From a virus: DNA of 62,050 nucleotides. The first letter of the stretch is position 1; every line of letters begins with the position of its first letter. The position numbers were made by a program, and so were the translations under genes. The notes under the pieces are model-generated. The model saw only the letters and a program-made list of their open reading frames with translations, searched no databases and had not been told where the DNA came from. Location of the stretch: the IMG/VR virus record IMGVR_UViG_3300034082_003330, positions 1 through 62,050 of that record; one strand, given 5' to 3'. This document shows, piece by piece, positions 47-57,732 of this stretch.

Positions 47-634
47 TTAAAACTTTCTTTTGAATGTTCTGTTTTTGTAGCTTTTAGACTCTCCAATCTG
101 GTCGATATCTACTGCTTGAGCTTTAAGAGCTTGAGCTTCTGGATCTAAACCTGTTTCAGTTTTATCAGAACCTCTTTCAAACTCACCTTGAGCTTGTGCT
201 CTTTTTTGAGCTTGTGCTTGTACTCTTCTTTCTTTTTTACCTTGAGCTTCTGCTTGAGCTTGTGGGTTGTTAAGGTAATCAACAACTTTTTCAACGTCGT
301 CAGTTTTCAAATCGATTCCGTCTACTCTAAATTGTCCTGTTTCAGATGGTTGATCAATCTCATGTCCATCATGATTGATAACATTTCTTTCAACTGAAGC
401 ACCTAACAATTCTGCTAATCCTTCTAATCCACCTTCTACTGCGTCTACGTCTCCATATGCTAATGGATTGTCTCTTACACCTGGTTCTTCTGTAGGAATA
501 ACAGATGGTCTAGCCGGTCTTGGCGTTGTATCTGGTCTTGTTGGTGCTGGAATCGTCTCAGGAGAAACGCCTGGTCTTGACGGTGCCGGAGCATTTTCAT
601 TTGTTTTTACAAATTGATTATATTTTTTAATCAT
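47..634 (-). CDS. Tagged Pro-rich and AQ-rich protein, function unknown
   Basis: A 195-residue protein that I cannot assign. It begins MIKKYNQFVKTNE, a variant of the N-terminal tag shared by many proteins in this window. Residues 15-55 are a Pro/Thr/Arg-rich linker. The middle is acidic with no clear fold. Residues about 125-175 are rich in Ala-Gln dipeptides, like the Gln-rich repeats of the proteins at 44074-47499 and 55246-55944, and the C-terminus is basic. The ATG is 22 nt downstream of a leftward TTAATATATA box at 657-666. The tag and low complexity suggest a head-internal or structural protein; this is inference. Confidence 0.75.
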   Translation of the reverse strand: MIKKYNQFVKTNENAPAPSRPGVSPETIPAPTRPDTTPRPARPSVIPTEEPGVRDNPLAYGDVDAVEGGLEGLAELLGASVERNVINHDGHEIDQPSETGQFRVDGIDLKTDDVEKVVDYLNNPQAQAEAQGKKERRVQAQAQKRAQAQGEFERGSDKTETGLDPEAQALKAQAVDIDQIGESKSYKNRTFKRKF

Positions 635-656
635 CTTTTTAGACTTATTTTTTTAG

Positions 657-666
657 TATATATTAA
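657..666 (-). promoter_or_regulatory. TTAATATATA promoter box for the gene ending at 47
   Basis: An exact leftward TTAATATATA box stands 22 nt before the ATG at 634. The same decamer precedes many genes on both strands. It is unlike the Bacteroidetes -7 element and is presumably a phage-specific promoter. Confidence 0.7.
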
Positions 667-683
667 AATATTTTTTTCTTTTT

Positions 684-1172
684 TTACTCTTCATCTTGAT
701 TTTCTAACTCACTAACTACATAGTCGATAAAACTATCAAGTTCATATTCATAACCTGAACAAAAGTCAAAGACATCAAAATCTTTTCCGTTTATCTGAAC
801 TCCAAAGTCTGGAGATGTGAATGTTGTTTCTGGATAGTAAACGATTCTTCCTTCAAGTCTTCCACTTATTGTTTTCCCGTTTTCTATAAGATCTGGACAA
901 GTAAGTGTTCCTAAGTAATGTATCTCATCTCCATATTCTTCTATAGAGTCAAATTCAAACTTGAACATTCCAGCATAGTCTTCGAAGACCTTTTCACTTT
1001 CTTCTTTAGTAAGTGCATTATGTACTGCTTCTTCACCGCCGGATTTATGTGCATCCAAAAACTCTTTCTCTAATGAAGTCAATGATTTCATACCATACTT
1101 AGATATTTTGTCTAGTATGTCGTCGACTCGTTGTGCGGTCGAATAACCTTCGTATCTCATTAGATGTCTCAT
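684..1172 (-). CDS. Tagged protein with an ILDKI-type motif, function unknown
   Basis: A 162-residue acidic protein. The start is ATG at 1172, giving MRHLMRYEGYS; the GTG two codons upstream is less likely. The first residues match the shared N-terminal tag. They are followed by ILDKISKYGMKSLTSLEKEF, a motif otherwise found mostly at the C-termini of Bacteroidetes proteins (rhomboid-associated, DUF6576-like from memory) and present in three other proteins here. The remainder, about residues 60-160, has alternating strands and acidic turns with no recognised catalytic motif. A TTAATATATA box at 1183-1192 lies 10 nt upstream. Confidence 0.75.
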   Translation of the reverse strand: MRHLMRYEGYSTAQRVDDILDKISKYGMKSLTSLEKEFLDAHKSGGEEAVHNALTKEESEKVFEDYAGMFKFEFDSIEEYGDEIHYLGTLTCPDLIENGKTISGRLEGRIVYYPETTFTSPDFGVQINGKDFDVFDFCSGYEYELDSFIDYVVSELENQDEE

Positions 1173-1182
1173 AATCACAATG

Positions 1183-1192
1183 TATATATTAA
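1183..1192 (-). promoter_or_regulatory. TTAATATATA promoter box
   Basis: An exact leftward box 10 nt upstream of the ATG at 1172. The position favours that ATG over the GTG at 1178. Confidence 0.65.
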
Positions 1193-1207
1193 ATTAGACA
1201 CTCGTTT

Positions 1208-1555
1208 TTATACAGAACCTTTGATTTCCCACGGATTCCAGTCTTTTATAGGTTCCATTAGTTTCTTTTTAATAGTTTCATATACGGGTATTAGATTGCC
1301 TGATGTCTGGTATATAGCTATGTAATTATTTTGATACTTTTCGGAATCAAAGTCTTCTATTTCTTTATCTTCTAAAACTGAATCTAATCGACTTTGTCTT
1401 TCCCATGCTTTTACTGAGTTTATATAGCTATCTACAAAGAATATAAGAAATCCATTCTCTTCTTTGTGATTACGGATCATATCAAAGTCTATTCCATCAT
1501 AGAAAAAGACATTGGTTCCGTTTATTTCTATATTTTCAATCAAAGTCAAAGCCAT
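1208..1555 (-). CDS. Small hypothetical protein
   Basis: A 115-residue protein from ATG 1555 (MALTLIENIEINGT). An upstream in-frame TTG at 1570 is possible but less likely. Its start overlaps the 3' end of the gene at 1536-1760 by 20 nt, so the two are probably translated from one leftward message. The composition is acidic with aromatic residues, and there is no signal peptide, membrane segment or motif I recognise. The gap to the next gene is about 35 bp without a terminator. Confidence 0.7.
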   Translation of the reverse strand: MALTLIENIEINGTNVFFYDGIDFDMIRNHKEENGFLIFFVDSYINSVKAWERQSRLDSVLEDKEIEDFDSEKYQNNYIAIYQTSGNLIPVYETIKKKLMEPIKDWNPWEIKGSV

Positions 1556-1760
1556 CGAATAAGTCGTCAATCTTTTTATCTCTAAAAGATCCTATTTGTT
1601 TTCCTTCAAATTGTTCATTTTTTTCGACTTTATTTTTGAACTCTTCAAATGCCGCTCTTGATATTTTAGAAAGTGCCATTGCACCTGCTGATATCTTTCC
1701 TTCGTTTAATCTATCTGATAGATAACTTACGAACATTGGGTATAGTCTTTCGTTTTTCAT
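1536..1760 (-). CDS. Small hypothetical protein
   Basis: A 74-residue protein from ATG 1760 (MKNERLYPMFVSYL). The upstream extension begins with TTG and runs through the promoter box, so it is rejected. It looks all-helical: an amphipathic N-terminal half (YLSDRLNEGKISAGAMALSK), then charged residues and an acidic/aromatic tail ending FDGFDFD. A leftward TTTGATATATA box sits 5 nt before the ATG. It is divergent from the nuclease-like gene at 1814, whose promoter has the same short spacing. Function unknown. Confidence 0.65.
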   Translation of the reverse strand: MKNERLYPMFVSYLSDRLNEGKISAGAMALSKISRAAFEEFKNKVEKNEQFEGKQIGSFRDKKIDDLFDGFDFD

Positions 1761-1765
1761 AAAAA

Positions 1766-1776
1766 TATATATCAAA
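1766..1776 (-). promoter_or_regulatory. Promoter box with 5-nt leader
   Basis: Leftward TTTGATATATA ends 5 nt before ATG 1760, one of the short-leader class. Confidence 0.55.
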
Positions 1777-5235: not shown

Positions 5236-5763
5236 ATGATAAATAAATGGAATGAATTCATAAGAGAGTTTGTTGAATCAACTGGATTGATTGATGCAAA
5301 AATGCAAGAGCTCAAAGATTTGATAGATGGTATGTCCGATGGACAGAACCTTATATACGAATGGGAGAACAAAGACGACCATCAGTTATTGGTTAATTTT
5401 ACTAGCGGTGATCTTTCTCTTAGATATGAGTTTGACATTGATGATTTACACGTTACAAAAATTGCTGGTGATACTGTAGACTATAAGACTGATGTTGAGT
5501 CTATGGAAGAAGGATTAGATCTTATTGAAAAGGATATTCAATCCATCTTAGGTATTGATGAAAAAAAGACAAATAATATGAAATATTTGAAAAAATTTGA
5601 GTCTTATAATTTTGAAGACTTTACACATTCCGATATGGAAGATGTAAAAGATTTATTAGAAGAAGGGTTAACTGCCGAAGAAATCGCAAATGAATTAGAC
5701 TTTGATGTAAACAAAGTTAAACAAATAATCTCTTCTATTAGAAAGAGTGAAAAATTTAATTAA
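5236..5763 (+). CDS. Two-part protein: unknown N-terminal domain joined to a tagged HTH-like domain
   Basis: A 175-residue protein (MINKWNEFIREF). Residues 1-110 form an acidic mixed alpha/beta domain I do not recognise. Residue 115 is a Met that begins MKYLKKFESYNFEDF, a near-perfect copy of the N-terminal tag seen on separate proteins here. After it comes a short helix-turn-helix-like segment (LLEEGLTAEEIANELDFD, then VNKVKQIISSI). Either two genes have fused, or an internal start produces the C-terminal part separately; see the nested entry. The promoter is a TTAATATATA box 5 nt before the ATG. The next gene starts 10 nt downstream. Confidence 0.75.
   Translation: MINKWNEFIREFVESTGLIDAKMQELKDLIDGMSDGQNLIYEWENKDDHQLLVNFTSGDLSLRYEFDIDDLHVTKIAGDTVDYKTDVESMEEGLDLIEKDIQSILGIDEKKTNNMKYLKKFESYNFEDFTHSDMEDVKDLLEEGLTAEEIANELDFDVNKVKQIISSIRKSEKFN
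5578..5763 (+). CDS. Possible nested product starting at the internal tag
   Basis: The in-frame ATG at 5578 is preceded by an A-rich stretch (GAAAAAAAGACAAATAAT) like the leaders of other genes here. It would yield a 61-residue protein with the tag at its very N-terminus, where the tag sits in other genes, followed by the HTH-like segment. It shares the frame and stop of the longer gene. Whether it is made independently cannot be decided from sequence. Confidence 0.4.
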   Translation: MKYLKKFESYNFEDFTHSDMEDVKDLLEEGLTAEEIANELDFDVNKVKQIISSIRKSEKFN

Positions 5764-5772: not shown

Positions 5773-5982
5773 ATGAAAAATTTATTACTATTTGAAGACT
5801 ACAATGAAGTTCTTATATTAGAAAAAAATATCCCGACTAACCCAGAACTATGGGCAAAGTGCAAAGCTTCTGCCAAATCAAAATATGATGTTTGGCCATC
5901 AGCATATGCATGTGGTTTTGCTGCTAAAAAATATAAAGCAGAAGGTGGTAAATGGAAAAAAGAAAAGAAAAAGAAGAAATAA
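5773..5982 (+). CDS. Small tagged basic protein
   Basis: A 69-residue protein. The N-terminus MKNLLLFEDYNEVLILEK is the shared tag followed by I-L-E, a possible gp21-type cleavage site. Residues 23-62 form a compact Cys/Trp-containing basic module (WAKCKASAKSKYDVWPSAYA, then CGFAAKKYKAEGGKW) that I recall from other large phages and some giant viruses, function unknown. The tail is poly-Lys. It overlaps the next start (TAATG). Probably a DNA-associated or packaged protein (inference). Confidence 0.8.
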   Translation: MKNLLLFEDYNEVLILEKNIPTNPELWAKCKASAKSKYDVWPSAYACGFAAKKYKAEGGKWKKEKKKKK

Positions 5983-6275
5983 TGGAATATTTATTATTAT
6001 TTGAACAATTCATATTAGAAGAAAAGAAACCAAAAGGTGGTCTTGATAAATGGTTCAAAGAAAAGTGGGTTGATATATCTAAGACTAATGCTGATGGAAC
6101 ACATCCACCATGTGGTAGAGATGATGCTGATAAAGGATCTTATCCAAAGTGTAGAAAGGTAAGAGTAGCTGCAAGGATGACTGATAAAGAGAAAAAAGCT
6201 TCAACTAGAAGAAAAAGAAAAGTTGAAAAAGAAGGCTCTAAAGGAAGTGGTAGAAAACCAAATTACGCTAAATAA
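5982..6275 (+). CDS. Small tagged basic protein, DUF5872-like
   Basis: A 97-residue protein from ATG 5982, which overlaps the preceding stop. It begins MEYLLLFEQFILEEKK, the tag with I-L-E directly after it. The rest (GLDKWFKEKWVDISK, a CGR motif, PKCRK, then a long Lys/Arg-rich tail) resembles a small family of phages and giant viruses that I remember as DUF5872. Cys residues could bind metal, and the tail (KKASTRRKRKVEK) would bind nucleic acid. It is translationally coupled to the upstream gene and followed by a strong terminator. Confidence 0.8.
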   Translation: MEYLLLFEQFILEEKKPKGGLDKWFKEKWVDISKTNADGTHPPCGRDDADKGSYPKCRKVRVAARMTDKEKKASTRRKRKVEKEGSKGSGRKPNYAK

Positions 6276-10209: not shown

Positions 10210-10938
10210 TTATTTGTAGGCTAAATTTATTGTCTCACCTGCGTATTTTCCGGTGAGTGCATTTTGGTACTCTACTATTTTATAGCTCACCATCTTCGAA
10301 CCCTGTTCTGCTAGATTTAACAAATATTGTATTGATTGATTTCTTTCTTCACCAGGTGTCATATTCTTTATCTCTTCTGCGTTCTGCTGAACAACTTTCA
10401 TCGCTGAGTTTGCCAAGTCTGTCACTTGTTTTCCAAAGATTGGATTGTCTACCGATCCTCCTTTTTTCAATTGAAACAAATATGCTTGTGCTTTCATAAG
10501 AAGACCATCATCGTATTTTCCGGATCCTTCGGACTGAAGTCTTTTCAGGAATCCAATTGCGGCATCCATTACTCCTTCCGGTGGTGTAGCTTGTTTAGTC
10601 GCTGCTGCAGAACATAGAACAAAGAATAAAACTATTAGAATAAGTGTTATGATTATAGTTCTAAATAAGGCAGGGTGCTTTTCTTTGAAACTTTTTATCT
10701 TATCCAGTACCTTGTCGAAGAACTTTTTGACGAGACTAAGTGCCATCAATCCTTTCTCCATCAGTGTCAACATAAGATTTCTTATAGAATCGTTTATCTT
10801 TTCAAAGAAGTCTCCTATCTTTTTCATCCAATCCGTAAATCCTTCGTTTATAGAATCAAAATTACATAACTCATCAAGAGCTGCAAAAGTTCTTTGTTCA
10901 TTTATCGAAAAGGATTCAAAATTGTTTAGATGTTTCAT
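10210..10938 (-). CDS. Tagged membrane protein
   Basis: A 242-residue protein. The N-terminus MKHLNNFESFSINEQ is a clear copy of the shared tag, followed by I-N-E. Amphipathic helices fill about residues 35-85, then one strong transmembrane segment near 93-112 (TIIITLILIVLFFVLCSAAA), then a helical, Gln/Met-rich C-terminal domain that ends with small polar residues. If the tag targets the head, this would be a membrane-active protein carried in the capsid, which would fit a role in genome entry; this is speculation. It shares one base with the upstream gene's stop. Confidence 0.75.
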   Translation of the reverse strand: MKHLNNFESFSINEQRTFAALDELCNFDSINEGFTDWMKKIGDFFEKINDSIRNLMLTLMEKGLMALSLVKKFFDKVLDKIKSFKEKHPALFRTIIITLILIVLFFVLCSAAATKQATPPEGVMDAAIGFLKRLQSEGSGKYDDGLLMKAQAYLFQLKKGGSVDNPIFGKQVTDLANSAMKVVQQNAEEIKNMTPGEERNQSIQYLLNLAEQGSKMVSYKIVEYQNALTGKYAGETINLAYK

Positions 10939-21372: not shown

Positions 21373-21403
21373 AAAAAAGTCCTTCATTTGAAGGACTTTT
21401 TTT
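21373..21403. terminator. Bidirectional hairpin terminator
   Basis: The stem AGTCCTTC/GAAGGACT has A7 and T7 flanks, between the fibre gene and the converging gene ending at 21402. Confidence 0.9.
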
Positions 21404-21662
21404 ATGATATTATTTTAATAATATTTTCTAAGGAAAAACCATCTAATGGTTTGCCACCATTTTTAAGGTAGTCTCCATAGATGTTGTTATAGTCATCTAT
21501 AGTATAGAACTTTGAATCTAAGTCACAAAATATAACTGTAGTATCGTGTGCATTCACCGTTTTATTCTGAAGTCCTGTCTCTCCGTATCCTGGTCCCATA
21601 GGTCCAATCAGTTCGGTTCCGTTTACTTCTTCTTTTATGAAATCTTCAAATCTTTTAATCAT
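21402..21662 (-). CDS. Small tagged protein
   Basis: An 86-residue protein. From ATG 21662 it begins MIKRFEDFIKEEVNG, the tag with I-K-E in the cleavage-site position, very like T4 internal-protein N-termini. Two further in-frame ATGs directly upstream (21665 and 21671) are possible starts. The remainder has a Gly-rich loop (GPMGPGYGETG) and a short alpha/beta stretch. It overlaps the upstream gene by 8 nt. Candidate head-internal protein. Confidence 0.75.
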   Translation of the reverse strand: MIKRFEDFIKEEVNGTELIGPMGPGYGETGLQNKTVNAHDTTVIFCDLDSKFYTIDDYNNIYGDYLKNGGKPLDGFSLENIIKIIS

Positions 21663-22199: not shown

Positions 22200-25100
22200 A
22201 TGGATCAAAAGTTACTTAGTGCATTAAACAATTTATCCGAAGGCCTGGAGGCCATCGCAGAGGCACTTAAAGAAAGTGGGGGTAGTGGTAATAAATCTGC
22301 CACTACTTCCGCACTACAAGGTGGAAGTTTTACTAAAGAGATTCAGGAAATAAATGTTGGTGTCAAGCAATTGATGAAAGATTCTAAACAGATTCTGAAG
22401 AACCAAGAAACTATAATAAGTTTATCTAAGAAGTCTGCAGGTGATAAAAAGAGTGACTTTGAAAAGGCGGGTGGTGATAAGAAGAAAGAAAGCCAGATTA
22501 AAAAAGGTATTGGAACTATATTGCTTATTGCAGTTGCTGTACTTGCCATAGGAATGGCATTTAAACTTGTTGGTAAAATTGATTTTCTATCGGTTGTAGG
22601 TTTAGGATTAGCCATGTTGATAATGTCTGAGGCGTTTGTAAAAATAGCCAAAACAAAAATGACTATAAAAGAGGCTGCTATTGCATCACTTGCAATGGTT
22701 ATGATGGCAATTGCCGTTACTCTTTCATCATGGGTATTAAAAATGATTAGTCCAATCGGAATAGCACAGTTACTAACGGGTATTGCAATAACTGCAATGT
22801 TTTATATTATGGCTCCTAAATTCGCGATGTTATTGAATGCTGTTAATAATAGCTTCAAAAAAGTGAGTTATGCAGACATAATCAAAGTTACTGTAATCTT
22901 AGTTGCTATGTCTGTGGCGATAACTCTTTCATCATGGGTATTGAGATTAATCACACCATTGAGTCTTGGACAGATTATAACGGGTATTGGTATAACCGTG
23001 ATGTTCTATGTTGTGTCTAACTTTTTACCTAAGCTTGCCATTTCGGTAATCGCGGTTAGTAAAATAATGAGTAAAAAAGACTTGGCGTTGTTGCCAATCA
23101 TGTTGGTTGCATTTTCTATTGCGATAACACTTTCGTCATGGATATTGAGAATGATTGCACCAATGTCGTTTGGACAAATAATAACAGGGATTGCAATAAC
23201 TGCGATGTTCTGGATTGTATCTAACTTCTTGCCTAAGCTTGCACTTGCTGTAATCGCGGTTAGTAAAATAATGAGTAAAAAGGACTTAGTTTTACTACCA
23301 CTTATGATGGTTGCATTTTCTATCGCGATTATGCTTTCTTCTTTAATATTAAAATTGATTCAACCACTATCGTTTGGTCAGATAATAACAACAATAGTTG
23401 TTACTGCAGTATTTTGGGCAATTTCGATGTTTTTAACAGATATCGCAATTGGTGTTATTATGGTTGATAAAATATTGGGTAAAAATAAAATATGGATGAT
23501 TCCATTGGTTTATGTTGCGATATCTGCTGCCATAATGGTTGCCGGTTTCCTTTTCTCGATGACTCCAGAATTGGGTTGGAAACAAATGGTTGGTATTCTA
23601 TTGATTGGTTTGATATTTGCTGGATTGGCTTATGTTATGCCTGATATGGCGATTGGTCTTGTTATCATGGAGAAGGCCTTGGGTAAAGGTAAAATGTGGT
23701 TGATTCCTTTGGTTTATGTTGCGATTGCTGCTGCCATAATGGTTTCGTCTCACATTCTTAATGCTAGTGCTGAAATACCTTGGATGAAGCTACTTAACAT
23801 ATTGGTATTCTCTGTTGTATTAGTGATTGCAGTTGCTTTAATCGGATTACTATCTTTACTTTTAGTCAAAGTTATTGGATTAACCACTATACTAAAAGGA
23901 TCTCTTTGTATTGTGGCTATAGCCACTTCAATAATGTTGGCATCATGGCTTCTTACTAAGGGTAGTTATAAAAAATATCCTGATTGGAAATGGGTACTTT
24001 TTGCAGCATTGGCAATTGTGGTATTTGGTTTAATAGGATGGTTATTGATGAAGATTGGTAGTCTCAGTACGTATATAAAGGGTGGTATTGCCATATTGGC
24101 GGTTGCTACTACTATTATGTTGACTTCGCATATAATAAATGCTGGAAACTATAAAAAATATCCTAAACTGGCTTGGTCTCTAGGTGTTGGTGCTGCATTG
24201 TTGGCATTTGGTTTGGCTGCGGTTGGATTGGGGTTAGTGATGATGTTTGATGGTGGTTTATCTCTTTTATTAGGTTCTCTTGGTATTTTAGGAGTATCTG
24301 CAACTATAGTTGCTGCCTCACACATACTTGCTCAGGGTAAATATGGTAAATTTCCTTCACTTGGATGGTCTGTTTCTGTTGGTTTAGCATTGGCTGCCTT
24401 TGGTGGTGGAATGGTTCTTTTGGGTGGTCTTATAATAGCATCTTTTGGTATTGGTGGTCTTATGCTTGCAGCAGGTGCTAAGGCTGTTTTGAAGGTCGCA
24501 GAAACTATAGTAAAGTCATCACACATATTAGCCAAAGGAAATTGGAAAAAGGGTCCTACGGTTGAATGGGCATCGGGAGTTGCAATTGCACTTGGTGCTT
24601 TTGCACCAATCTATAGTATGTTGTTGGAAAACGCACCTGGACTTTTCAGTGCGGGTGGTGGTGTTGGTCCAGACGATTTTGCAAGGGCCATAGTAACCGT
24701 TAGTAAGGGTATAATGACTGCAGCGGCTGAATTCGCCTCTCCTAAGAATAAAAGTGTTTGGAAAGGTGGACCTACACAAGCTTGGGCGACTGGTGTTGGT
24801 ATAGCATTAGGTGCATTCGCCCCAGTTTATATGATGTTGCTTAACAATGCACCTGGTATATTCAGTAAGGGTGGTGGTGTCGGACCTGAAGATTTTGCAA
24901 AGGCAGTTATGACGGTTTCTAGAGGTATAATAGCAGCTGCTGGAGTATTTGCGTTAAATACCGCACAATTCGAAGAAGGTAAATATCCTTCTGTTAAATG
25001 GGGTCAAGGTGTAGGTGCTGCACTTAATGCCTTTGCTCCTGTATTTACCGCGTTGAGTAAAGATACTGGTTGGTTTACATCGGGTGATGAGGTTATAACC

Positions 25101-28318: not shown

Positions 28319-28354
28319 TAAAAAAGCCTTTAGATTTTCTAAAGGCTTTTCTTT
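28319..28354. terminator. Bidirectional hairpin terminator
   Basis: A thirteen-base stem, AAAAGCCTTTAGA/TCTAAAGGCTTTT, between the convergent genes ending at 28301 and 28354. Confidence 0.9.
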
Positions 28355-35742: not shown

Positions 35743-36126
35743 ATGAAACACTTAAAAAAATTTAATGAAGGATTCTTTTCGAATCTTTTTAAAGGAAAAG
35801 AAGATGAAACACCAGTAACTCCTGAAGAAGTTAAATCAAAATCAACATCAGGTTCGGCTTTTGATAGAGATGAATTAAAAATTGAAGCGGAAGAAAAATT
35901 TAATTCTCTAGTAAAAGAATTAGATAGTAAGTTAAGAAATACAACTGAAAATTATATTGAAGTAAAACAAAATCCTGCCTTTAAAACCAAAAGTACAAAA
36001 TCGGTAAACTCTTTTTTATTGAAAATGATTGAAGATCATTATACACAAAGAGGATTTATAACCAATAGATCGTATGATGGTAGAGATAATGCTAAACATG
36101 ATTGGTTTAGAATAATCGCTGACTAA
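35743..36126 (+). CDS. Tagged protein, function unknown
   Basis: A 127-residue protein that starts MKHLKKFNEGFFSNLFKG, a good match to the tag. Residues 20-45 are a polar linker; residues 45-127 form a mixed helix/strand domain (EKFNSLVKELDSKLRNTTEN, then FLLKMIEDHYTQRGFITNRS). It has its own promoter and terminator, so it is a single-gene unit. Candidate packaged protein. Confidence 0.75.
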   Translation: MKHLKKFNEGFFSNLFKGKEDETPVTPEEVKSKSTSGSAFDRDELKIEAEEKFNSLVKELDSKLRNTTENYIEVKQNPAFKTKSTKSVNSFLLKMIEDHYTQRGFITNRSYDGRDNAKHDWFRIIAD

Positions 36127-44073: not shown

Positions 44074-47000
44074 TTAAGCTCTGGTGATTTCAACTTTGCT
44101 CGCGTCACTTCCGTTAATCATATTTACGATCGTGGAAATTCCCGCCACTTTGGCTATCTGCTTGTTTAGTTTTTCGACCTTCTCTTTGTCTTTACCTATT
44201 TCTTTTCCAAATTCTATCGCGTTGAAAAGAACGTTTTTGCCATCCACCTCTTTTGTGATCCAATATGCTCCGATCACTTCTATTTTTTCGGTGGTGATTT
44301 TTTTCTGACCGTCCGCACTCATCATTCCGACTTCTATAGTACCTGGTGATAATAACAATTTCAAGAAATCATCTCTTTTAACTTTGGTGAAATGTGAAAG
44401 TGCTTTAGATTCTTTTACCTGTAAATCACCACCTACTAAATTATTAGCATGTCCTAAAACAGAGGCGTCTAGAAGAGGATTGAATGTGCCAAAGTTTTTA
44501 CTACACTGCATATATGCATATGCACCATCTATCTCTTGAATGTAGAATGCTCTCTGTGCCTCGTTGCCATCTTTGTCTTTTATCTTCAATACAAAAAACG
44601 TGTATTTTACAGGATAAACGGCTTTTTTACCATCGTCACTAACCGCGTTTTCACTTTTTGTGGCCTTTATCTTAGTAGCGCTTGCTTCTATCCCTTCTAC
44701 AATCTCTTGGTTATTTTCTTCATCTTTTTCCAAAAATGTTCCTCCTTTGTTGATTGCAGTACCTATCTTCTCGTCCGGTTTTCCAAAGTATTCGTCTAAA
44801 AGCTCTGCTTGTTTTCCTCTTCCTGAATCACCATATCCACTTTTAGATTTGTAAAGACTATCACCATCTAACATATCGGTCATGAACTTTCTCAGATTGG
44901 CACCACCGTTTGGTCTGATTTCGTTTCCTACTCTTAGGTTTGTCTTCGGGTCGAAGATGAATTCGTATTTTCTATCTTTCATTAAATCCAAAACTGCATT
45001 TTCCCAAACATCGAATATTTTGTCGTTTCTATAAGGACCTTTGTCTCCAAACGAAGTATATTCTGCTTCGGTACTTACACCAGGTCCGGTACTTCTTTTT
45101 GTTATGTATTTTGCCATATAAAGCTTGTATGCTCTGTTGAACAATTTCAATATCTCGATTATTGGATCGTATCCGTCTATTATGAATCCGTCTTTGTCTT
45201 TTTCTAACTTTTCGAAGTTTGCTCTAACTTTCTCAAACTCTGTTTTATCCATTGTGTAGTCTTTTACATTTCTACACTTTCTCTCAAAGTAGTCTTGTAT
45301 CCTTTCGACTCTAGACATACTAGATCTTGGATCACTTGCACTTGTACTTCCTTGAGTTTCTGTTGACTCTGGAGTCTCTTCTGTAGTCACTGGTTCTTCT
45401 GCTTCTTTTATGTAAGACATGAATCTGTCGAATTTAAGCAATCTTCCTACAGGTTTACTACTGCTCTTCAATGCTTCGTTTAATTCCAACATAATAACAC
45501 GCATTCCAGCTTGTATCTCCATTAATTTTGAGATATAAACACTTTCGTTTACCGATTCGTCAAGCTTGTCCAGGTCGGCTTTCATTTTATCTATGTTTGC
45601 TAGTATCTTCGCTTTTTTTGGGTTATCTTTTTTAAGTTCCAATGCTTTTTTAGTCGCACTTTCTATATCTTTTATAAGCTCGTCCTTTTTATATTTGGTC
45701 TCTCTTGCCTTTTGGTCTACATAAGGTGAAAGATCTGATTTTGAAACTCCAAAAGAAATTTTCGAATCGTCGTACACAACAGATAGTGTATCTTCCTTTG
45801 GAAGTTTTCCACCTTCTGCGTCGTCTTTAGTTGCCCACTTTTTATCATCGCCCATTTTCATTACATGAGTCTTCGAAACCAAAGTCACAACTCTCTTATC
45901 GCCTTTTCCGTCTGTGTATATGTATTTTTGACCAACGTTGTATTTGCTTTCCTTTTTCTTTTCCTCGCTTTGCTCTGAATACTCTGTCTTAACATTGACA
46001 ATTGGATTTTTCATCAAAACCTTTAATGTCTCAACAAACTTTTTAAGCGGATCTGCCAATTCTCCTAAACCACCATAAAGATTCTTCCCATCAAACTGTA
46101 AAGCTCTCTTTGCGAATCTTGCGATTTTTTCCGCAACAACTTCAATCTTACCACCATTTGGATTTTTCTCACTTCTTGGCATTAGATATTCGTAAGACTC
46201 TTTATATAAAGAATCTTTTTCTTGAATCGTTTGCTTTTTGTCACCTACCAAATACCTATTTATATTGTCGTATAAGGCCATTATGAGTGTATCGTTTTTA
46301 CCATCTTTATGTTTGGCTAATAGTATTCTGACAAACTCTTCACTTATTGGTAGCTTTTGGTCTTTTGTATCTATAAGAGATGTTATATCTTTTGTTAATT
46401 TTCCAAATGCTTGAGTCAAATGATCTTCTTCTTTATAGACATTATTTCCATCTACACTATTTCCTTGTTTCTCTAATACTAATTCAAGTCCTGCTTTTAA
46501 AGTTATCTTTTCCTTTTTAGTGTTAAGTTTCGTAGCAGCAGCGAGTGTTGCTTTCAATTCTAGTTCGTTTTTGGCAAAAATTTTATCAATATTTGCACTT
46601 GAAAAAGTAACTCCTTTGTTTATATCGGAGTTGTTCAGTATCGATGTTAATGTGTCACCTGCTACAGTTACATAAGGAACTGGTTTCTTTGCATCTGCCT
46701 CTTCTTTTTTGTTGAAGTTTAAAAGATTTACACTTTTGTAATTTTTTAAGATATAGTAAAGTGCACTTAGATTCTTAATCATGGTTGGAAGGCTTTCTTC
46801 TAACTTTGAATATTTATCCTCATTCTCTTCAGAATCTTCTTCACTTTGACCCTGTCCTTGACCCTGTCCTTGACCTTGTGCTTGACCCTGTCCTTGACCT
46901 TGTGCTTGACCTTGTGCTTGACCTTGTGCTTGACCCTGTGCTTGACCCTGTGCTTCTATTTTTTTTAGTTCCTCTAAGAAACCCTCAAGTTCTTCAAGTA

Positions 47001-47499
47001 ATTTAGCCTTTACTGTAGTATCAATATCGGTTTCTTTCATCTCTTCTGTTGCTGTGATTGCACTTTCTGTAAGATTTATTATAATATTAGTCTCAGAACC
47101 ATTTTCAACGGCCTCGTTCAATGCAAAAAAGAATGAATACAAAATACTTTTTGCATAAAGTTTCTTATCTTCAGGATTCATGTTGTATGCAAATCCAGAT
47201 GCTGCTATCCTATCAAATTCACCTTCTAGTCTTGAGATTAATGGCTTTATTCTTCTAAGGTTGTTAGCGACTTTTGCTTTTCTAACAAGGTGATTTAAAA
47301 ACCTACCTACTAATGAATCATGCCATCCAATATCATTCGCCATTGGTCCTGATCCGTGGTTGCTGGCATATTCACTTTCTTTTATAAGTTCTTGATATAG
47401 TTCATTTCCTGATATTTTTGCGTCTCTTAGAAATTCAGATTTTTCGTCTAATCTTTTGGCTTCTCTTAAAAAGTCATTTCTTTTAATAAGATATTTCAT
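44074..47499 (-). CDS. Large tagged protein with Gln-rich repeat; possible polyprotein
   Basis: A 1141-residue protein. It begins MKYLIKRNDFLREAKRLDE, the tag followed by L-R-E. Residues 1-170 are helical. Residues about 180-222 are an (Ala/Gly)-Gln dipeptide repeat. A LysM-like stretch lies near 270-340 (VTVAGDTLTSILNNSD ... LKAGLELVLEKQG). Near residues 680-695 (GRLLKFDRFMSYIKEAEE) a second tag-like segment with an I-K-E site is followed by a Thr/Glu linker, as if a second tagged protein had been fused. The C-terminal 400 residues are a mixed alpha/beta domain. Two internal sites suggest processing by a prohead protease. A TTAATATATA box (47522-47531) drives it. Confidence 0.75.
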   Translation of the reverse strand: MKYLIKRNDFLREAKRLDEKSEFLRDAKISGNELYQELIKESEYASNHGSGPMANDIGWHDSLVGRFLNHLVRKAKVANNLRRIKPLISRLEGEFDRIAASGFAYNMNPEDKKLYAKSILYSFFFALNEAVENGSETNIIINLTESAITATEEMKETDIDTTVKAKLLEELEGFLEELKKIEAQGQAQGQAQGQAQGQAQGQGQGQAQGQGQGQGQGQSEEDSEENEDKYSKLEESLPTMIKNLSALYYILKNYKSVNLLNFNKKEEADAKKPVPYVTVAGDTLTSILNNSDINKGVTFSSANIDKIFAKNELELKATLAAATKLNTKKEKITLKAGLELVLEKQGNSVDGNNVYKEEDHLTQAFGKLTKDITSLIDTKDQKLPISEEFVRILLAKHKDGKNDTLIMALYDNINRYLVGDKKQTIQEKDSLYKESYEYLMPRSEKNPNGGKIEVVAEKIARFAKRALQFDGKNLYGGLGELADPLKKFVETLKVLMKNPIVNVKTEYSEQSEEKKKESKYNVGQKYIYTDGKGDKRVVTLVSKTHVMKMGDDKKWATKDDAEGGKLPKEDTLSVVYDDSKISFGVSKSDLSPYVDQKARETKYKKDELIKDIESATKKALELKKDNPKKAKILANIDKMKADLDKLDESVNESVYISKLMEIQAGMRVIMLELNEALKSSSKPVGRLLKFDRFMSYIKEAEEPVTTEETPESTETQGSTSASDPRSSMSRVERIQDYFERKCRNVKDYTMDKTEFEKVRANFEKLEKDKDGFIIDGYDPIIEILKLFNRAYKLYMAKYITKRSTGPGVSTEAEYTSFGDKGPYRNDKIFDVWENAVLDLMKDRKYEFIFDPKTNLRVGNEIRPNGGANLRKFMTDMLDGDSLYKSKSGYGDSGRGKQAELLDEYFGKPDEKIGTAINKGGTFLEKDEENNQEIVEGIEASATKIKATKSENAVSDDGKKAVYPVKYTFFVLKIKDKDGNEAQRAFYIQEIDGAYAYMQCSKNFGTFNPLLDASVLGHANNLVGGDLQVKESKALSHFTKVKRDDFLKLLLSPGTIEVGMMSADGQKKITTEKIEVIGAYWITKEVDGKNVLFNAIEFGKEIGKDKEKVEKLNKQIAKVAGISTIVNMINGSDASKVEITRA
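46848..46955 (-). repeat. Hexanucleotide repeat encoding (A/G)Q dipeptides
   Basis: A tandem 6-bp unit, on the leftward strand GCACAA, GGACAG or GGTCAA, gives an AQGQ run. The same units recur in the rightward gene at 55246-55944. Confidence 0.9.
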
Positions 47500-51180: not shown

Positions 51181-53334
51181 ATGGCTGTAAAAGCAAACGA
51201 AACCGAAAGGCAGATGATTTTTACCACCAAATTTGTCGATGAGGCAACTGATAAGATAAACGACGGTATAGTCGTCAAAAGATATCAGAATCCTTGGATG
51301 AAGAGCGAAGTCGGTATCAGAAGAGCAGGCGTCTCTTTTAGAATGACTCCCGAAGAACAACAAGAATACGTAAGATGTGCATTAGATATACATTACTTTA
51401 CTGAGAAGTATTGTAAGACAAAAAGAGAAGATGGTTCTGTTGGTTCGATAACTCTTAGAGATTACCAAAAAGAAATCTTAGACAACTTTGTCAACAACAG
51501 ATTCAATATACTTATGGCATCGAGACAGGTTGGTAAAACCGTGTCTTCTGCTATTTTCATACTACATACGATATTATTCAGTAATGATAAGAACTGTATG
51601 ATTGTTGCCAACAAAGGTGATACTGCAATTGAGATTGTGGATAAAGTAAAATCGATATACACACTTCTTCCATTCTTCTTAAAACCAGGTGTAAAGACTT
51701 GGAATCAAAAATCTCTTACATTTGAGAATGGTTGTAGAATAAAAACATCTGCAAGATCTAAGACTCCTGCGATTGGTTTTACCATTGACGTTCTTTACTT
51801 AGATGAGTTTGCACATATTCCATCGAATATCATCGAACCATACTATACCGCTGCGTTTCCGACCGTTTCTGCGGTACAAAACTCAAAGATTATCATTACA
51901 TCAACACCAAATGGTATGAACTTATTTCATAGGTTATTAACAGATGCTGAAAGACCTGATGGTGATCCAATGAAGAATAACTACAAACCTATGAGGGTTT
52001 ACTGGTATCAGGTTCCTGGTAGGTTTGTGACTTATATAAGATTGAATCCACACAAACTTTATGAATATGGTGTTACAAAAGACGACATATTTAAATTAGT
52101 ACAAGATACGTTTGGTGAAGTCACAAAGACAAAGATTGAGTTTAACTTAGACCAGCAGAAAGATGTTATTCATGTATTTAACAATGAAAAGTGTACAGAT
52201 GAAGAAGTTAAATCACTTCATTTTATAGACAAAAATGGATTTGAGACTTCTATATTAGCCATTGCAGAGATGACAACGTGGAAAGACGAAGCTGTGAAGG
52301 ATATTGGTGGAGAAGATGCGTTCAATCAAGAGTATGGACTTAGATTTATTAACTCAAGTAAGTCTCTTTTGAATGAGGCCATAATAGATGAACTTTTAAA
52401 ATCTAAAAAGAACTATATCTATGAAGAAATATTTGAGTTTAAGAACAAACTGAGGTTTATGTATGAAGACTTAAAATGGATTGATGATGATGAAGTACAT
52501 ATGCCATTAAAAAGAAAAGAATATAAATATGTTCTTTCTGTCGATATATCCGAAGGTTTAGGACAAGATTACTCTATCATAAACATATTTAAAGTTTCTG
52601 AAAAACCTGTAGATTTAATAGAAACACAAAAACACAAATACAAGGCCATTACTGATTTCTTCAGACTTGAACAGGTTGGATTATACAGAAACAACTTTGT
52701 TTCTGTCAAACAATTAGCAGAACTTCTTTATCTTCTTGTTTTTGAATATTTGAATCCTGATAATGTAAGAGTAGTTCTTGAGTTAAACAACTATGGAAAC
52801 ACACTATTGGCGGAGATGCCGCACGTTTTTGATGGTAACAACAACTATGGTTCATCGGTGTTTGTTAGGTATAAACATAGAATAGATTCGACTGAAGAAA
52901 AACTTGGACTAAAAGTTGGTGAGAATAAAAACATGATGGTTAAAGACTATCAAGAACTTATGTATAGTAGAGGATTTCATATTACAAATGAGGATAATAT
53001 TAGAGAAATAACAACTTTTGTTAAGCATGTCACTACCGCAGGTAACGTAAGATATGCAGCAGACGTAGGACATGATGATACGGTTATGACCGTGGTCAAT
53101 GCCACTTCTATTTTTGCCAAATCAGAATTCAAAGAGATGGTCGAAGAGTGGGGTAATAAATATAGTCCTAAAGAGTTTATGGCTTATGTCAACGACTGTA
53201 TGAAAAACATGGATTATGTACAAGGAATTGACTATAGTCAGGTTCTTAGTGTTAGAAGACAGGTTATGTCACGAAATAAAGTGTCTAATGTAGGATCTAA
53301 TCCGAATGGAATAAACTGGTTCAATAGACCTTAA
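51181..53334 (+). CDS. Large terminase subunit, gp17-like
   Basis: A 717-residue protein. The ATPase has Walker A SRQVGKT (114-120), Walker B VLYLDEF (204-210) and the coupling motif ITSTPNG (239-245). The RNase H-like nuclease domain has its three acidic residues near VDISEGLG (about 452), VVLELNNYG (about 530) and DVGHDDTV (about 629). It packages and cuts concatemeric DNA at the portal. It is longer than T4 gp17 (610), mainly through the extended N-terminus. The start follows an A-rich leader. A strong terminator follows. Confidence 0.95.
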   Translation: MAVKANETERQMIFTTKFVDEATDKINDGIVVKRYQNPWMKSEVGIRRAGVSFRMTPEEQQEYVRCALDIHYFTEKYCKTKREDGSVGSITLRDYQKEILDNFVNNRFNILMASRQVGKTVSSAIFILHTILFSNDKNCMIVANKGDTAIEIVDKVKSIYTLLPFFLKPGVKTWNQKSLTFENGCRIKTSARSKTPAIGFTIDVLYLDEFAHIPSNIIEPYYTAAFPTVSAVQNSKIIITSTPNGMNLFHRLLTDAERPDGDPMKNNYKPMRVYWYQVPGRFVTYIRLNPHKLYEYGVTKDDIFKLVQDTFGEVTKTKIEFNLDQQKDVIHVFNNEKCTDEEVKSLHFIDKNGFETSILAIAEMTTWKDEAVKDIGGEDAFNQEYGLRFINSSKSLLNEAIIDELLKSKKNYIYEEIFEFKNKLRFMYEDLKWIDDDEVHMPLKRKEYKYVLSVDISEGLGQDYSIINIFKVSEKPVDLIETQKHKYKAITDFFRLEQVGLYRNNFVSVKQLAELLYLLVFEYLNPDNVRVVLELNNYGNTLLAEMPHVFDGNNNYGSSVFVRYKHRIDSTEEKLGLKVGENKNMMVKDYQELMYSRGFHITNEDNIREITTFVKHVTTAGNVRYAADVGHDDTVMTVVNATSIFAKSEFKEMVEEWGNKYSPKEFMAYVNDCMKNMDYVQGIDYSQVLSVRRQVMSRNKVSNVGSNPNGINWFNRP

Positions 53335-55245: not shown

Positions 55246-55944
55246 ATGAAACATATCAGACAATTTGAAAGTTTTAGAGTTCAGAAAAACAGACAAGAAA
55301 TAATCAGCGAAGCTGTTCTTCAAGTGAACGATATCTATAAGGTTAAAACTATGATCGATATTCCACAATCTTTAATCAATTCTTATGTTAAGAAAGTTAA
55401 AGATACTACAGGAAAAAATCTTCGTCAGTTTTTCGGTGATGTTGACATCGCGGAAGAGATTGTAAAATACATAACTCTTAACAATACAGACGTTGAGAAG
55501 ATTCCTGGAAACGCTTTAATGGGCGGTGCACAAGGACAAGTTCAAGGACAGGGTCAAGGACAGGTTCAAGTTCAAACTGAAGGTGAGGCACAAACTCAAG
55601 GACAGGAACAAGCTCAACCACAAGCTCAACCACAGGGTCAAGGTCAAGAACAAGCTCAACCACAAGGACAGGGTCAAGAACAAGCTCAACCACAAGCACA
55701 ATCACAAGAAGGTGATTTTGAAGAGCCACAAGCTCAACCACAAGGACAAGGACAGGAACAAGCTCAACCACAGGCACAAGGACAAGCTCAAACTGGTCAA
55801 GGACAAGCTCAAGGACAGGGTCAAGGACAAGCTCAAGGACAGGGTCAAGGACAAGGACAGGGACAACCACAAGGACAGGGTCAAGCTCAAGGACAAGGAC
55901 AGGGTCAAGAAGAAGATGAAGATGAAGAAGAACTTCCAGCTTAA
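55246..55944 (+). CDS. Tagged Gln-rich repeat protein
   Basis: A 232-residue protein. It begins MKHIRQFESFRVQKNRQEII, the tag followed by I-S-E at residues about 20-22. Residues 25-90 form a helical domain (INSYVKKVKDTTGKNLRQFF). Residues about 95-222 are almost entirely dipeptides XQ with X mainly A, G, P or V. The C-terminus is acidic (EEDEDEEELPA). Repeats make every reading frame open, so overlapping frames are not genes. It may be a head-internal filler or DNA-condensation protein (inference). Followed by a terminator. Confidence 0.8.
   Translation: MKHIRQFESFRVQKNRQEIISEAVLQVNDIYKVKTMIDIPQSLINSYVKKVKDTTGKNLRQFFGDVDIAEEIVKYITLNNTDVEKIPGNALMGGAQGQVQGQGQGQVQVQTEGEAQTQGQEQAQPQAQPQGQGQEQAQPQGQGQEQAQPQAQSQEGDFEEPQAQPQGQGQEQAQPQAQGQAQTGQGQAQGQGQGQAQGQGQGQGQGQPQGQGQAQGQGQGQEEDEDEEELPA
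55528..55912 (+). repeat. Hexanucleotide repeat encoding XQ dipeptides
   Basis: A tandem 6-bp unit of the type CAAGGA, CAGGGT, CAAGCT or CAACCA runs for nearly 390 bp and is interrupted once (around 55708-55728). It shares units with 46848-46955. Confidence 0.9.
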
Positions 55945-55999: not shown

Positions 56000-56001
56000 A
56001 T

Positions 56002-56011
56002 TTAATATATA
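56002..56011 (+). promoter_or_regulatory. TTAATATATA box, 4-nt leader
   Basis: An exact box followed by AAAT and ATG 56016. The box overlaps the preceding terminator T-run by proximity, leaving no room for an ordinary leader. Confidence 0.7.
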
Positions 56012-56015
56012 AAAT

Positions 56016-56663
56016 ATGAAAAAAATCATTACATGGGAAGAGTTTAATGAATCTTATAATAAACCAAGAGTAGGTGGTAAAAAGAGATGGTCTGTTAAAT
56101 ATAAAAAAACAATAGACTGTAATAATCCTAAAGGTTTTTCACAAAAACAATATTGTAAGAGAAAAAGAAAAGGTGGTAATTATAAGTCTGTTAAAGAAAA
56201 CTTTGGTCTATCTGACCAAGAAATAGAAAATAAGATAATGGAAGTATGGAAAGTAGATCCATATGAGTTTAAAGACTACATTACTTCATCTATGGATCAT
56301 GGTGACTTATATGGAAGTTGTAATTTGACTTTTGTTCTTTGGTATCCTTATCCAGATTCTAATGTCGAACCATGTGCCATATTTATGTTAGAAGATAACG
56401 AATGGAAGAAAGGACCTTGGTATGACAATATGGATGCTATATTGAAAAGTGAAAGATATGAAGTTGGTATAGAAGCTTGGGTTCCGGATGTTGGTGGTAA
56501 TCATGAAAAGATAGAGAAGTTTTACAACTACGCAAACAGAGTTCTACAGGAAGCGGATATACCATACATTGCATCTTATCCAGATGTTCGACACGAAGGA
56601 AAGATACTTTTAGAGTATGGCTATACCTGGGGTTATAAAACAAAATTCATTGGCGACGAATAA
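56016..56663 (+). CDS. Tagged protein with basic Cys module
   Basis: A 215-residue protein. It begins MKKIITWEEFNESYNK, a tag variant. Residues 20-60 (GGKKRWSVKYKKTIDCNNPK, then GFSQKQYCKRKRKGGN) contain a basic module with two Cys that recurs in unrelated phages and is probably nucleic-acid- or metal-binding. The C-terminal 140 residues form a mixed alpha/beta domain with many Trp/Tyr (VLWYPYPDSNVEPCAIFMLE), not recognised. Possible packaged protein. Confidence 0.75.
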   Translation: MKKIITWEEFNESYNKPRVGGKKRWSVKYKKTIDCNNPKGFSQKQYCKRKRKGGNYKSVKENFGLSDQEIENKIMEVWKVDPYEFKDYITSSMDHGDLYGSCNLTFVLWYPYPDSNVEPCAIFMLEDNEWKKGPWYDNMDAILKSERYEVGIEAWVPDVGGNHEKIEKFYNYANRVLQEADIPYIASYPDVRHEGKILLEYGYTWGYKTKFIGDE

Positions 56664-56678
56664 ATCTAAATGAGAAAA

Positions 56679-56687
56679 TAATATATA
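56679..56687 (+). promoter_or_regulatory. TAATATATA box, 4-nt leader
   Basis: TAATATATA followed by GTAA and ATG 56692. Confidence 0.6.
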
Positions 56688-56691
56688 GTAA

Positions 56692-57342
56692 ATGAGATAC
56701 CTAAAAACGTTCGAAAGCCACAGCAGTAAAGACATTCTTATTGTTGTTGATGTTCAAAAATCATTCAAAAAATTCTTCAATGAGATTTATCTTCATGAGT
56801 TGAAAAAGTATTGTAATGAGTTCAGTAAGGTATATCAAATCTGGGACAACCACGTAGATGGAAAGAACGTCGATAAAGACTATCTATATGATGAAGATCC
56901 TGAAATACCTGTTCATAAAGATCTTTATCACTTTCCTAACCAAACTGACTTGATTGAGAAAAGATACAACTATGACGTTGATGCAGACTTCTATAAAAAA
57001 GTTCTTACACCGGAAACCTATGAAGAAGTTAAGACTAAAGAAGATGCAAACGAATTGAAAAAGGGAGATTTCTTTCCTACAGAAGAAGGAACTCTTATTA
57101 TATATGTCGGAAATAACCACAAATGGTATCATATGCCAAAGAAACTTCACGAACTTTTTACAGAAGTTGCAGAGGCACAAAATATGAATGAAGGATTGAG
57201 TGAGGTTAAAGATGTGATTCTTGTAGGTGGTGCAGATGGAGAATGTCTTACAGATGTTGAAACTGCAGCAGAGGCAATGGGTGTAAAACTGAGACTTAAT
57301 CACAAATATATCTATAGTGCTAGCCACTGTCCAATAAAATAA
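56692..57342 (+). CDS. Tagged cysteine hydrolase (isochorismatase/nicotinamidase superfamily)
   Basis: A 216-residue protein. It begins MRYLKTFESHSSKDI, a full tag match. The catalytic triad of the cysteine-hydrolase superfamily is intact: D20 in IVVDVQKSF, K90 in LIEKRYNYDVDADF, and C185 in GGADGECLTDVETAA. The substrate could be an amide or isochorismate-like compound; nicotinamide is the most plausible in a phage context, but the metal-ligand set of nicotinamidases is not obvious. The tag suggests that the enzyme may be packaged and injected. Confidence 0.85.
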   Translation: MRYLKTFESHSSKDILIVVDVQKSFKKFFNEIYLHELKKYCNEFSKVYQIWDNHVDGKNVDKDYLYDEDPEIPVHKDLYHFPNQTDLIEKRYNYDVDADFYKKVLTPETYEEVKTKEDANELKKGDFFPTEEGTLIIYVGNNHKWYHMPKKLHELFTEVAEAQNMNEGLSEVKDVILVGGADGECLTDVETAAEAMGVKLRLNHKYIYSASHCPIK

Positions 57343-57351
57343 GATTTATAT

Positions 57352-57732
57352 ATGAGACTTATATTAGAGTTTGATAAATATAGTGTTATTGAAGATGTTG
57401 TTGCTGAGATGTCTAAGATATTTCCTCATGTGAAAATGAAAGGAAGTGTTCTATATGCTTCTTCTATTTTAGACAAAGGTGGAAATCCTCTTGTGAGAAT
57501 AGACTCAAAACAACCATTGATGGCACTTTTGATTCAATTTATTGGTGATCATATTGTTATAAAATCATTTGTAAACTCTGTAAGAGAACCTAACTTCTCA
57601 AAAAGATTTATGGATGGTCTTTCAAATGTTTTAGAACCAAAATATACCATAGTAGTTGATCAAGATGTGAGTCAAGGATATTGGGACCATATAATCGAAA
57701 AGTATCCTCAATTTAATTGGATTAAAAAATAG
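57352..57732 (+). CDS. Tagged protein, function unknown
   Basis: A 126-residue protein that begins MRLILEFDKYSVIEDVV, a divergent tag. Mixed alpha/beta pattern (FPHVKMKGSVLYASSILDKG, LMALLIQFIGDHIVIKSFVN, PKYTIVVDQDVSQGYWDHII). It starts 9 nt after the cysteine hydrolase, so they share a message. No family recognised. Confidence 0.7.
   Translation: MRLILEFDKYSVIEDVVAEMSKIFPHVKMKGSVLYASSILDKGGNPLVRIDSKQPLMALLIQFIGDHIVIKSFVNSVREPNFSKRFMDGLSNVLEPKYTIVVDQDVSQGYWDHIIEKYPQFNWIKK

Follow-up and report, generated by a model that had tools for sequence, protein, structure and literature searches.

A short N-terminal peptide on many unrelated proteins of huge phages is a probable T4-type capsid-targeting tag

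According to the papers cited here and below, gp21 of phage T4 removes N-terminal peptides of internal proteins (PMC3012670), a capsid-targeting sequence (CTS) brings foreign proteins into the T4 core (PMC9958956, PMC3012670), and the anti-restriction protein IPI of T4 is injected (PMC3012670). T4 IPII and IPIII open with MKTYQEFIAEA. We describe a short N-terminal peptide (hereafter the tag) that opens unrelated proteins encoded by IMG/VR virus record IMGVR_UViG_3300034082_003330, a linear virus fragment analysed over its full 62,050 bases (the window), and by the largest phage genomes compared. A preliminary description of the window took this peptide for a T4-type capsid-packaging tag, and the sequence comparisons reported here support that interpretation.

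Like the T4 CTS, the tag comprises about ten N-terminal residues with a Met-basic start and aromatics, then I-x-E before a small residue; it is carried by unrelated bodies, and the gene for a cognate S77 protease lies near the capsid gene. Unlike T4, where the CTS is reported on two proteins (PMC9958956) with a variant start on IPI, we find 71-177 tagged proteins per genome, and the tag differs further from the CTS in that its MKHL type is spaced differently, its spelling forms lineage dialects, many enzymes are among the predicted cargo, and protease and scaffold form one polypeptide. The giant phages phiKZ and SPN3US (protease gp245) also pack many injected proteins, some of them matured by cuts that follow E and show a preference for Ser at P1' (PMC10052503). 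They differ in that 13 of 14 mapped cuts remove N-terminal propeptides, in eight head proteins, and these propeptides are short in two cases (20 and 24 residues) and otherwise 111-254 residues long, with no common short tag reported in the accessible part of that account (PMC10052503). T4-type targeting is already known; what is new is the scale, the dialects, the enzyme cargo and the fusion of the protease to a scaffold with site-rich repeats. Protease-scaffold fusions occur in other phages, for example lambda C/Nu3, where maturation protease and scaffold are one chain; unlike in lambda, the protease here is S77-like, and in three genomes or contigs 11 repeats of 14 residues follow it in tandem. 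Among the literature matches listed, by title and abstract opening and with subscription papers and outside preprints beyond the scope, we found no account of capsid targeting in jumbo phages, huge phages or Mahaphage, and nothing relevant on polyphosphate kinase 2 (PPK2) in virions. A term search of the accessible text of a 2026 jumbo-phage review finds co-injected phiKZ proteins mentioned without "capsid targeting" or "internal protein" (PMC13282480).

The tag across huge-phage genomes

Over its full length the window matches, at 99.998% identity, a longer contig of 113,293 bases (G004, reached via locus L011), in which it occupies bases 38,258-100,307. Its terminase large subunit is 76-77% identical to those of LR756502 (642,428 bp) and LR745206 (634,780 bp) and about 41% identical to those of LR756504 (636 kb) and LR756501 (735 kb), and these comparisons identify the window as part of a huge-phage genome. 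The four largest complete phage genomes of Al-Shayeb et al. 2020 measure 634, 636, 642 and 735 kb, and those authors assign the genomes above 634 kb to the Mahaphage clade, with Bacteroidetes hosts predicted (PMC7162821). Genes and start sites in the window, the four large genomes, PTm1, PAU, G004 and T4 were called by a purpose-written script. The 735-kb genome is present twice in the collection (LR756501, LR756503) and was used once, and coverage was partial for LR756500 (180 of 462 kb, one further 20-kb piece being set aside), Lak-A2 (200 of 541 kb), T4 (three stretches, about 149 of 169 kb) and MA9V-1, MaF61 and pT24 (about 41 kb each). Four values given together below follow the order LR756502, LR745206, LR756504, LR756501.

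All 16 N-termini named in the preliminary description are present in the window at the coordinates given there, each read from an ATG. The pattern written for them, M-[KRE]-x-[LI]-x-x-[FWY]-x-x-[FY], is exact in ten (1172, 5578, 5773, 5982, 10938, 13083, 44056, 55246, 56016 and 57352) and fits the other six (634, 11911, 21662, 35743, 47499 and 56692) only in looser variants, and a clear tag at 5236, MINKWNEFIREF, had been overlooked. As had been remarked of several, 8 of the 16 continue with I/L-x-E within residues 8-30, and counting V-x-E as well (57352) makes this 9. As a regular expression, with W also allowed in the last place, the pattern matches 6/69 called N-termini of the window, or 9/69 with alternative starts, where 0.39 are expected from internal methionines (2/350) and 0.05 from shuffles.

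This expression was fixed on the window and carried unchanged to genomes outside its making, so that the large genomes provide an independent test. We find matches at 77/931, 51/924, 34/886 and 6/948 N-termini, when the same expression at internal methionines predicts 0.63, 0.66, 0 (0/2416) and 0.82; 200 shuffles of the N-termini gave at most 3 matches in LR756502 and 4 in LR745206. The expression is weak in LR756501, where a variant form of the tag is common. A general spacing rule, set on LR756502 and LR745206 (129/931 and 113/924) before the other two genomes were fetched, finds 62/886 and 115/948 in the latter, where 6.2 and 7.9 would be expected. By the union of three rules the counts are 173/931, 156/924, 71/886 and 117/948 (expected 5.3, 7.9, 6.6 and 8.5), together with 18/118 in G004 and 12/69 in the window (expected 0.9 and 0.6), and alternative starts raise the first two counts to 177 and 161. 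The tag is therefore on 8-19% of genes in the four largest genomes compared, 71-177 per genome, and the pattern search of related genomes that had been proposed recovers the same N-termini in hundreds of proteins. The union rule also finds 11/272 in LR756500 (1.3 expected) and is at or near chance in Lak-A2 (3/230), PTm1 (3/301, 1.3 expected), PAU (1/285, 1.0 expected) and T4 (1/193); the window's own expression matches none of the N-termini in the stretches of MA9V-1 (0/40), MaF61 (0/31) and pT24 (0/27). Along LR756502 the tags are densest at one end, on 38/106 and 26/90 genes in the first two 50-kb bins (0-100 kb).

The N-termini are, on the comparisons that follow, a tag and not one gene family. 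With the 14 N-terminal residues removed, the 282 tagged proteins of LR756502, LR745206, G004 and the window (the last two near-identical, both counted) fall into 214 blastp clusters, and an alignment of 59 long tagged LR756502 proteins has as its sole consensus run M-K-x-I-K-x-Y-x-x-F. One large modelled paralog family, marked by a DILxELxDxG segment, has 53 members in LR756502 and LR745206; 34 of the 282 tagged proteins belong to it by the first rule, and a later 7-residue rule fits 10 of the 19 members that had initially been scored as untagged. The tag rules changed between analyses, this paralog count using an earlier rule than the ortholog and union counts. A family scan covered tagged proteins of at least 190 aa (59 in LR756502, 62 in LR745206) or at least 150 aa (41 in LR756504, 80 in LR756501), after exclusion of genes crossing 20-kb chunk borders (2/61, 0/62, 1/42 and 3/83). 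Among the matches listed, which hold 25 of 33 families in one Pfam scan and 25 of 38 in the NCBIfam scan, are PPK2, polyA polymerase, T4-type RNA ligase, Nudix, phage lysozyme, GH108, HNH, ankyrin, DHH, methyltransferases, guanylate cyclase, RNase T, Acb1/2'-5' RNA ligase-like, SMODS-associated Nudix, CoaE, NADAR, DegT aminotransferase, radical SAM, GNAT and deaminase folds from Pfam, as well as the NCBIfam names PcnB/CCA-enzyme and RnlA, which were below curated cut-offs where inspected singly. By family counts, the majority of scanned tagged proteins have no Pfam family at E 1e-4.

Reciprocal best matches between LR756502 and LR745206 are tagged in both genomes in 42 cases, in one in 25 and in neither in 339 (Fisher p 6e-35); between LR756502 and LR756501 the corresponding numbers are 10, 14 and 129 (Fisher p 2e-7). 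The RNA ligase is tagged in LR756502 and LR745206, where the profile match starts at residues 27 and 23, and its best matches in LR756504 and LR756501 begin almost directly with the shared domain. PPK2 is tagged in four genomes, each time in a different spelling (MKNLRKFLDFIKEE, MINNFIKFINEE, MPVYNFHKFINEE and MISNYDNFMNES), tag types are swapped on homologous LR756502 and LR745206 bodies (MKYLRTYEGF versus MIIKKYIKFINEEF; MGIINFKNFQLNE↓K versus MKYIKPYSNFSINE↓A, the arrow here and below marking a candidate cut), and the window has a tagged gene for each half of DUF5872, both matches being below the curated cut-off. By these comparisons the tag is naturally gained, lost and swapped among orthologs and in that sense transferable between proteins. 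Its spelling is lineage-wide: MK[HYFNW][LI] opens 105/177 tags of LR756502 and 0/117 of LR756501, where an MI-x-K-aromatic type makes up 56/117. If one receptor answers all tags of a genome, a lineage-wide spelling is to be expected. Synonymous codons within the tags resemble those of untagged gene starts, and selection therefore acts on the peptide and not on the DNA. Separately, LR756502 gene 545 and LR745206 gene 495 are small tagged proteins with different tag types on near-identical bodies and a weak DnaG-primase (Toprim-region) match far below the curated cut-off.

Candidate cut sites and the protease-scaffold gene

The motif [ILV]xE is found at residues 8-26 in 102/173, 90/156, 42/71 and 62/117 tagged proteins (59, 58, 59 and 53%) and in 206/758, 220/768, 242/815 and 266/831 untagged ones (27, 29, 30 and 32%), an enrichment of about two-fold. 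The position after it (P1') holds S, A, G, N or T in 58/102, 50/90, 30/42 and 34/62 tagged cases, compared with 57/206, 60/220, 55/242 and 70/266 untagged, giving odds ratios of 3.3-8.5 across the four genomes.

A search for a gp21-type protease outside the window had been proposed, and a Peptidase_S77-like gene does lie there, about 9.9 kb past the window's right end on the near-identical contig. Peptidase_S77 (gp21-like) is matched at E ≤0.1 in 10/10 records searched and also in LR756500 and Lak-A2, and the Pfam model PF03420 scores above its cut-off in PTm1, PAU, LR756500 and Lak-A2. In LR756502, LR745206 and G004 the S77-like domain forms the N-terminal part of a product of about 700 aa, whose ORF (225272-227371 in LR756502) lies directly upstream of a gp23-like capsid gene. 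His, Ser and Asp at positions 72, 127 and 149, which we take to be the active-site residues of an S77 protease, are invariant in an alignment with T4 gp21, PTm1 and PAU. A profile match to T4 gp21 at E 7e-70 was set aside as circular, T4 gp21 having been part of that profile. The remainder of the ORF resembles a scaffold: [YFHD]-x-x-[YF]-[ILV]-[AGS]-[ED] matches it 12 times in each of LR756502, LR745206 and G004, and 11 of these matches lie in tandem at 14-residue spacing, most of the tandem repeats having a predicted cut site. Ranked by I/L-x-E density among proteins of at least 300 aa, this ORF comes first in 5/5 genomes or contigs (rank 1 of 154, 171, 163, 204 and 39). Its N-terminus reads KPVLIVE↓N where T4 gp21 has LLIE↓T, and T4 gp21 cuts nine N-terminal residues off itself (PMC9958956). 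The capsid protein has candidate sites 42-44 residues from its start, INE↓N in LR756502 and LR745206, IHE↓N in LR756504 and MNE↓N in LR756501. Away from the protease-scaffold gene, LR745206 gene 629 (66 aa) encodes a free-standing mini-protein with three scaffold-like repeats (MNYEDYIAESLEKNISYSEYISENL...).

Proposed packaging in the head and its alternatives

We favour, at a probability of about 0.73, the reading that the peptide is a T4-type capsid-targeting sequence whose carrier is packaged in the head, cut by the protease and injected. The tag, its excess over chance, its mobility, the peptide-level selection, the motif excess and the protease-scaffold and capsid genes are all read from sequence; with T4 as the precedent we infer core binding, cleavage, packaging and injection, and beyond these a cargo role. 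A basic, amphipathic N-terminal tag of the form M-K-x-L/I-x-x-F/Y-x-x-F/Y or M-I-x-K-Y-x-x-F-I-N-E would draw the protein that bears it into the inner prohead core as the prohead grows, docking on a core made of the gp21-like protease fused to its long, repeat-rich scaffold. The protease would cut after I/L/V-x-E as the core is digested and free the mature protein inside the head, and this protein would leave the head with the DNA at infection, for roles that may include early counter-defence, RNA/tRNA repair, and nucleotide and NAD metabolism. The RNA ligase, polyA/CCA-type polymerase, Nudix/NAD-related enzymes, Acb1-like protein, HNH protein and PPK2 among the carriers would suit an anti-defence kit for the first minute.

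Several observations weigh against packaging and cleavage of this kind. At residues 8-26, [ILV]xE is absent from 41-47% of tagged proteins, which makes cleavage a less general feature than the tag itself. Nor does conservation between orthologs change abruptly at the candidate site. The three internal proteins of T4 fall outside the tag expressions, though the CTS layout and core are alike. PF03420 scores 20.1-24.7 bits in the four large genomes (E 4e-6 to 1e-4), below its 27-bit curated cut-off, and with a T4-free profile T4 gp21 appears among PDB matches only at E 0.26, behind a ribosomal protein; the relation to T4 gp21 is therefore distant. Tagged bodies are not basic, those of LR756502 and LR745206 being slightly more acidic than the rest, and a basic, DNA-condensing cargo was rejected on this ground. 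The sampled cultured relatives lack the tag (PTm1 and PAU; MA9V-1, MaF61 and pT24 in the parts covered), the literature searched holds no virion proteomics for these uncultured phages, and the literature matches listed hold none of use for PTm1 or PAU, taken up as cultured relatives.

Some of these points would also fit a tag that sorts proteins elsewhere, to a replication compartment, a membrane, nucleic acid or ribosomes, with the I/L-x-E excess incidental. A basic aromatic helix could have a wide range of partners, packaging is something we infer, the cut motif is missing from the fraction of tags given above, and phage S21 proteins have basic, aromatic N-terminal extensions thought to be RNA-binding (Al-Shayeb et al., PMC7162821). 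We nevertheless consider such sorting unlikely: the cut motif and a small P1' are enriched in tagged proteins of four genomes, the motif peaks in the head protease-scaffold ORF, the T4 precedent has an identical layout, and ribosomal protein S21 of the four huge phages is untagged. A variant of head targeting, considered separately, would derive the tag from the 14-residue scaffold repeat (N-I-x-Y-S-E-Y-I-A-E-N-L-D-K) as a free-standing copy, so that cargo co-polymerises with the core. Tag and repeat share aromatic-x-x-aromatic-I/L-x-E, as does YQEFIAE of T4, but the common part may be merely the protease site. A repeat-derived matrix places 4, 5, 0 and 0 N-termini in the top 20 of LR756502, LR745206, G004 and the window, where about 5-6% are expected, an excess that is mild or absent, and a tag-derived matrix ranks the scaffold 21st in LR756502 and outside the top 30 in LR745206; with matrices weak both ways, this variant is unsupported beyond the common cut-site core and we hold it to be doubtful.

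Two further explanations are contradicted by the data. That the N-termini mark one multiplying gene family, its copies diverged beyond recognition after the first residues, draws on the real DILxELxDxG paralogs and on the members re-assigned by the 7-residue rule; it is very improbable, given the unrelated Pfam folds, the many clusters, orthologs with and without the tag, and the swapped types. A signal in DNA or RNA, such as a translation-start or leader element happening to encode MKHLK, would suit genomes that are all AT-rich and the A-rich upstream stretches of LR756502. Synonymous codons vary as at other gene starts, the upstream consensus of LR756502 has no clear difference between tagged and untagged genes, and the 735-kb genome retains the aromatic spacing and not MKHLK. 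Rejected on codon usage, this is to us the least credible of the alternatives.

Tagged proteins of the window and implications

The first half of the protein at 5236 is the reciprocal best match of a separate tagged LR745206 gene, and its second half resembles, by eye, another separate tagged LR745206 protein; the gene looks like an in-frame fusion of the two. The gene at 5982 is perhaps the other half of the DUF5872 family with a tag of its own. For the protein at 43514, all 15 distinct sequences found, the window's own included, have a tag-like N-terminus. The neighbouring 1141-aa protein may be a polyprotein, and its orthologs in LR756502 and LR745206 also have internal [ILV]xE sites after aromatics; it sits beside the tail sheath and has Gln-rich repeats. 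In the 55246 protein, I20 and E22 of the candidate cut site are invariant among 17 aligned sequences, and an ortholog with a nine-residue insertion just before the site still keeps it; a conserved EEELP lies at the C-terminal end. Low-complexity repeats, QAQGQGQ-type or rich in Ala, Gln and Pro, recur in several predicted head proteins (55246-55944, 44074-47499, 47-634 and the LR756501 protease-scaffold). The single other distinct ortholog found for the 56016 protein bears a different tag and is without its basic insert. For the 56692 protein the tag is predicted to be disordered, the first 11 residues having pLDDT <50 on a body that folds (mean 81.9, pTM 0.80). The best structural matches of the latter are cysteine hydrolases and nicotinamidases, but since these are weak (E 0.0056 at best) the isochorismatase/nicotinamidase name is tentative, and a sequence search of PDB returned nothing significant. 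Elsewhere, the window encodes two very long proteins of 1388 and 2003 aa (22200-26366 and 28354-34365), the first without a PHROG match at E 0.001.

Table 1. Tagged proteins and landmark genes in the window, and the protease-scaffold ORF on the overlapping contig. Arrows, candidate cut sites.
Coordinates	Strand	N-terminus	Description
47..634	-	MIKKYNQF...	tagged, 195 aa, rich in Pro/Ala/Gln; Pfam and PHROG give no family at E 0.01
684..1172	-	MRHLMRYEGY	tagged, 162 aa, DUF6576 match; orthologs tagged in LR756502 and LR745206
5236..5763	+	MINKWNEFIREF	tagged; second, internal tag MKYLKKFESY at 5578
5773..5982	+	MKNLLLFEDY	tagged, 69 aa, Lys-rich tail; DUF5872 positions 1-46, 0.1 bit below curated cut-off
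5982..6275	+	MEYLLLFEQFILEE	tagged, 97 aa; DUF5872 positions 48-109, below cut-off
10210..10938	-	MKHLNNFESFSINE↓Q	tagged, 242 aa
11552..11911	-	MEIKKFKLF	tagged, 119 aa
11923..13083	-	MKNLRKFLDFIKE↓E	tagged PPK2, Pfam E 1e-75; ortholog tags re-written
21402..21662	-	MIKRFEDFIKE↓E	tagged, 86 aa
34447..35430	+	MAKIDKVEKFLKE↓E	possible variant; outside all regular expressions, not counted
35743..36126	+	MKHLKKFNEGF	tagged, 127 aa
43514..44056	-	MKYLKNFKRF	tagged, 180 aa, adjoins tail sheath
44074..47499	-	MKYLIKRNDFLREA...LIKE↓S	1141 aa; second tag-like stretch LLKFDRFMSYIKE↓A near residue 690
51181..53334	+		terminase large subunit, untagged landmark that placed the phage
55246..55944	+	MKHIRQFESF...IISE↓AVLQV	tagged, Gln-rich
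56016..56663	+	MKKIITWEEF	tagged, 215 aa
56692..57342	+	MRYLKTFESH	tagged, 216 aa, isochorismatase/nicotinamidase-like fold (weak match)
57352..57732	+	MRLILEFDKYSVIE↓D	tagged, 126 aa
G004 110,172-112,274			protease-scaffold ORF, about 9.9 kb past the window's right end

Each of these uncultured phages has about 900 genes, most of them with no known function; the tag offers a sequence-only list of proteins predicted to enter with the DNA and ranks hundreds of unknown genes for testing. Predicted entry precedes any phage gene expression, the stage at which proteins of counter-defence and first-minute takeover are expected. The central prediction, if head targeting is true, is that N-termini in the virion begin right after I/L/V-x-E. 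The many natural tag-cargo pairs would be of use for engineering protein delivery. On a wider proposition we are evenly poised: the largest known phages would run a general head-loading system in which any gene can join the injected proteome through a tag of 10-20 residues, with 70-180 ready-made protein kinds per virion of the 640-735 kb class (RNA ligase, polyA/CCA-type polymerase, Nudix/NAD enzymes, anti-CBASS-like protein, PPK2, lysozyme and many unknowns) delivered as a starter toolkit where DNA alone might be assumed, and the genome-wide drift in spelling would imply co-evolution with one core receptor per lineage. The finding bears on why such large heads persist, and may link gigantism to protein delivery.

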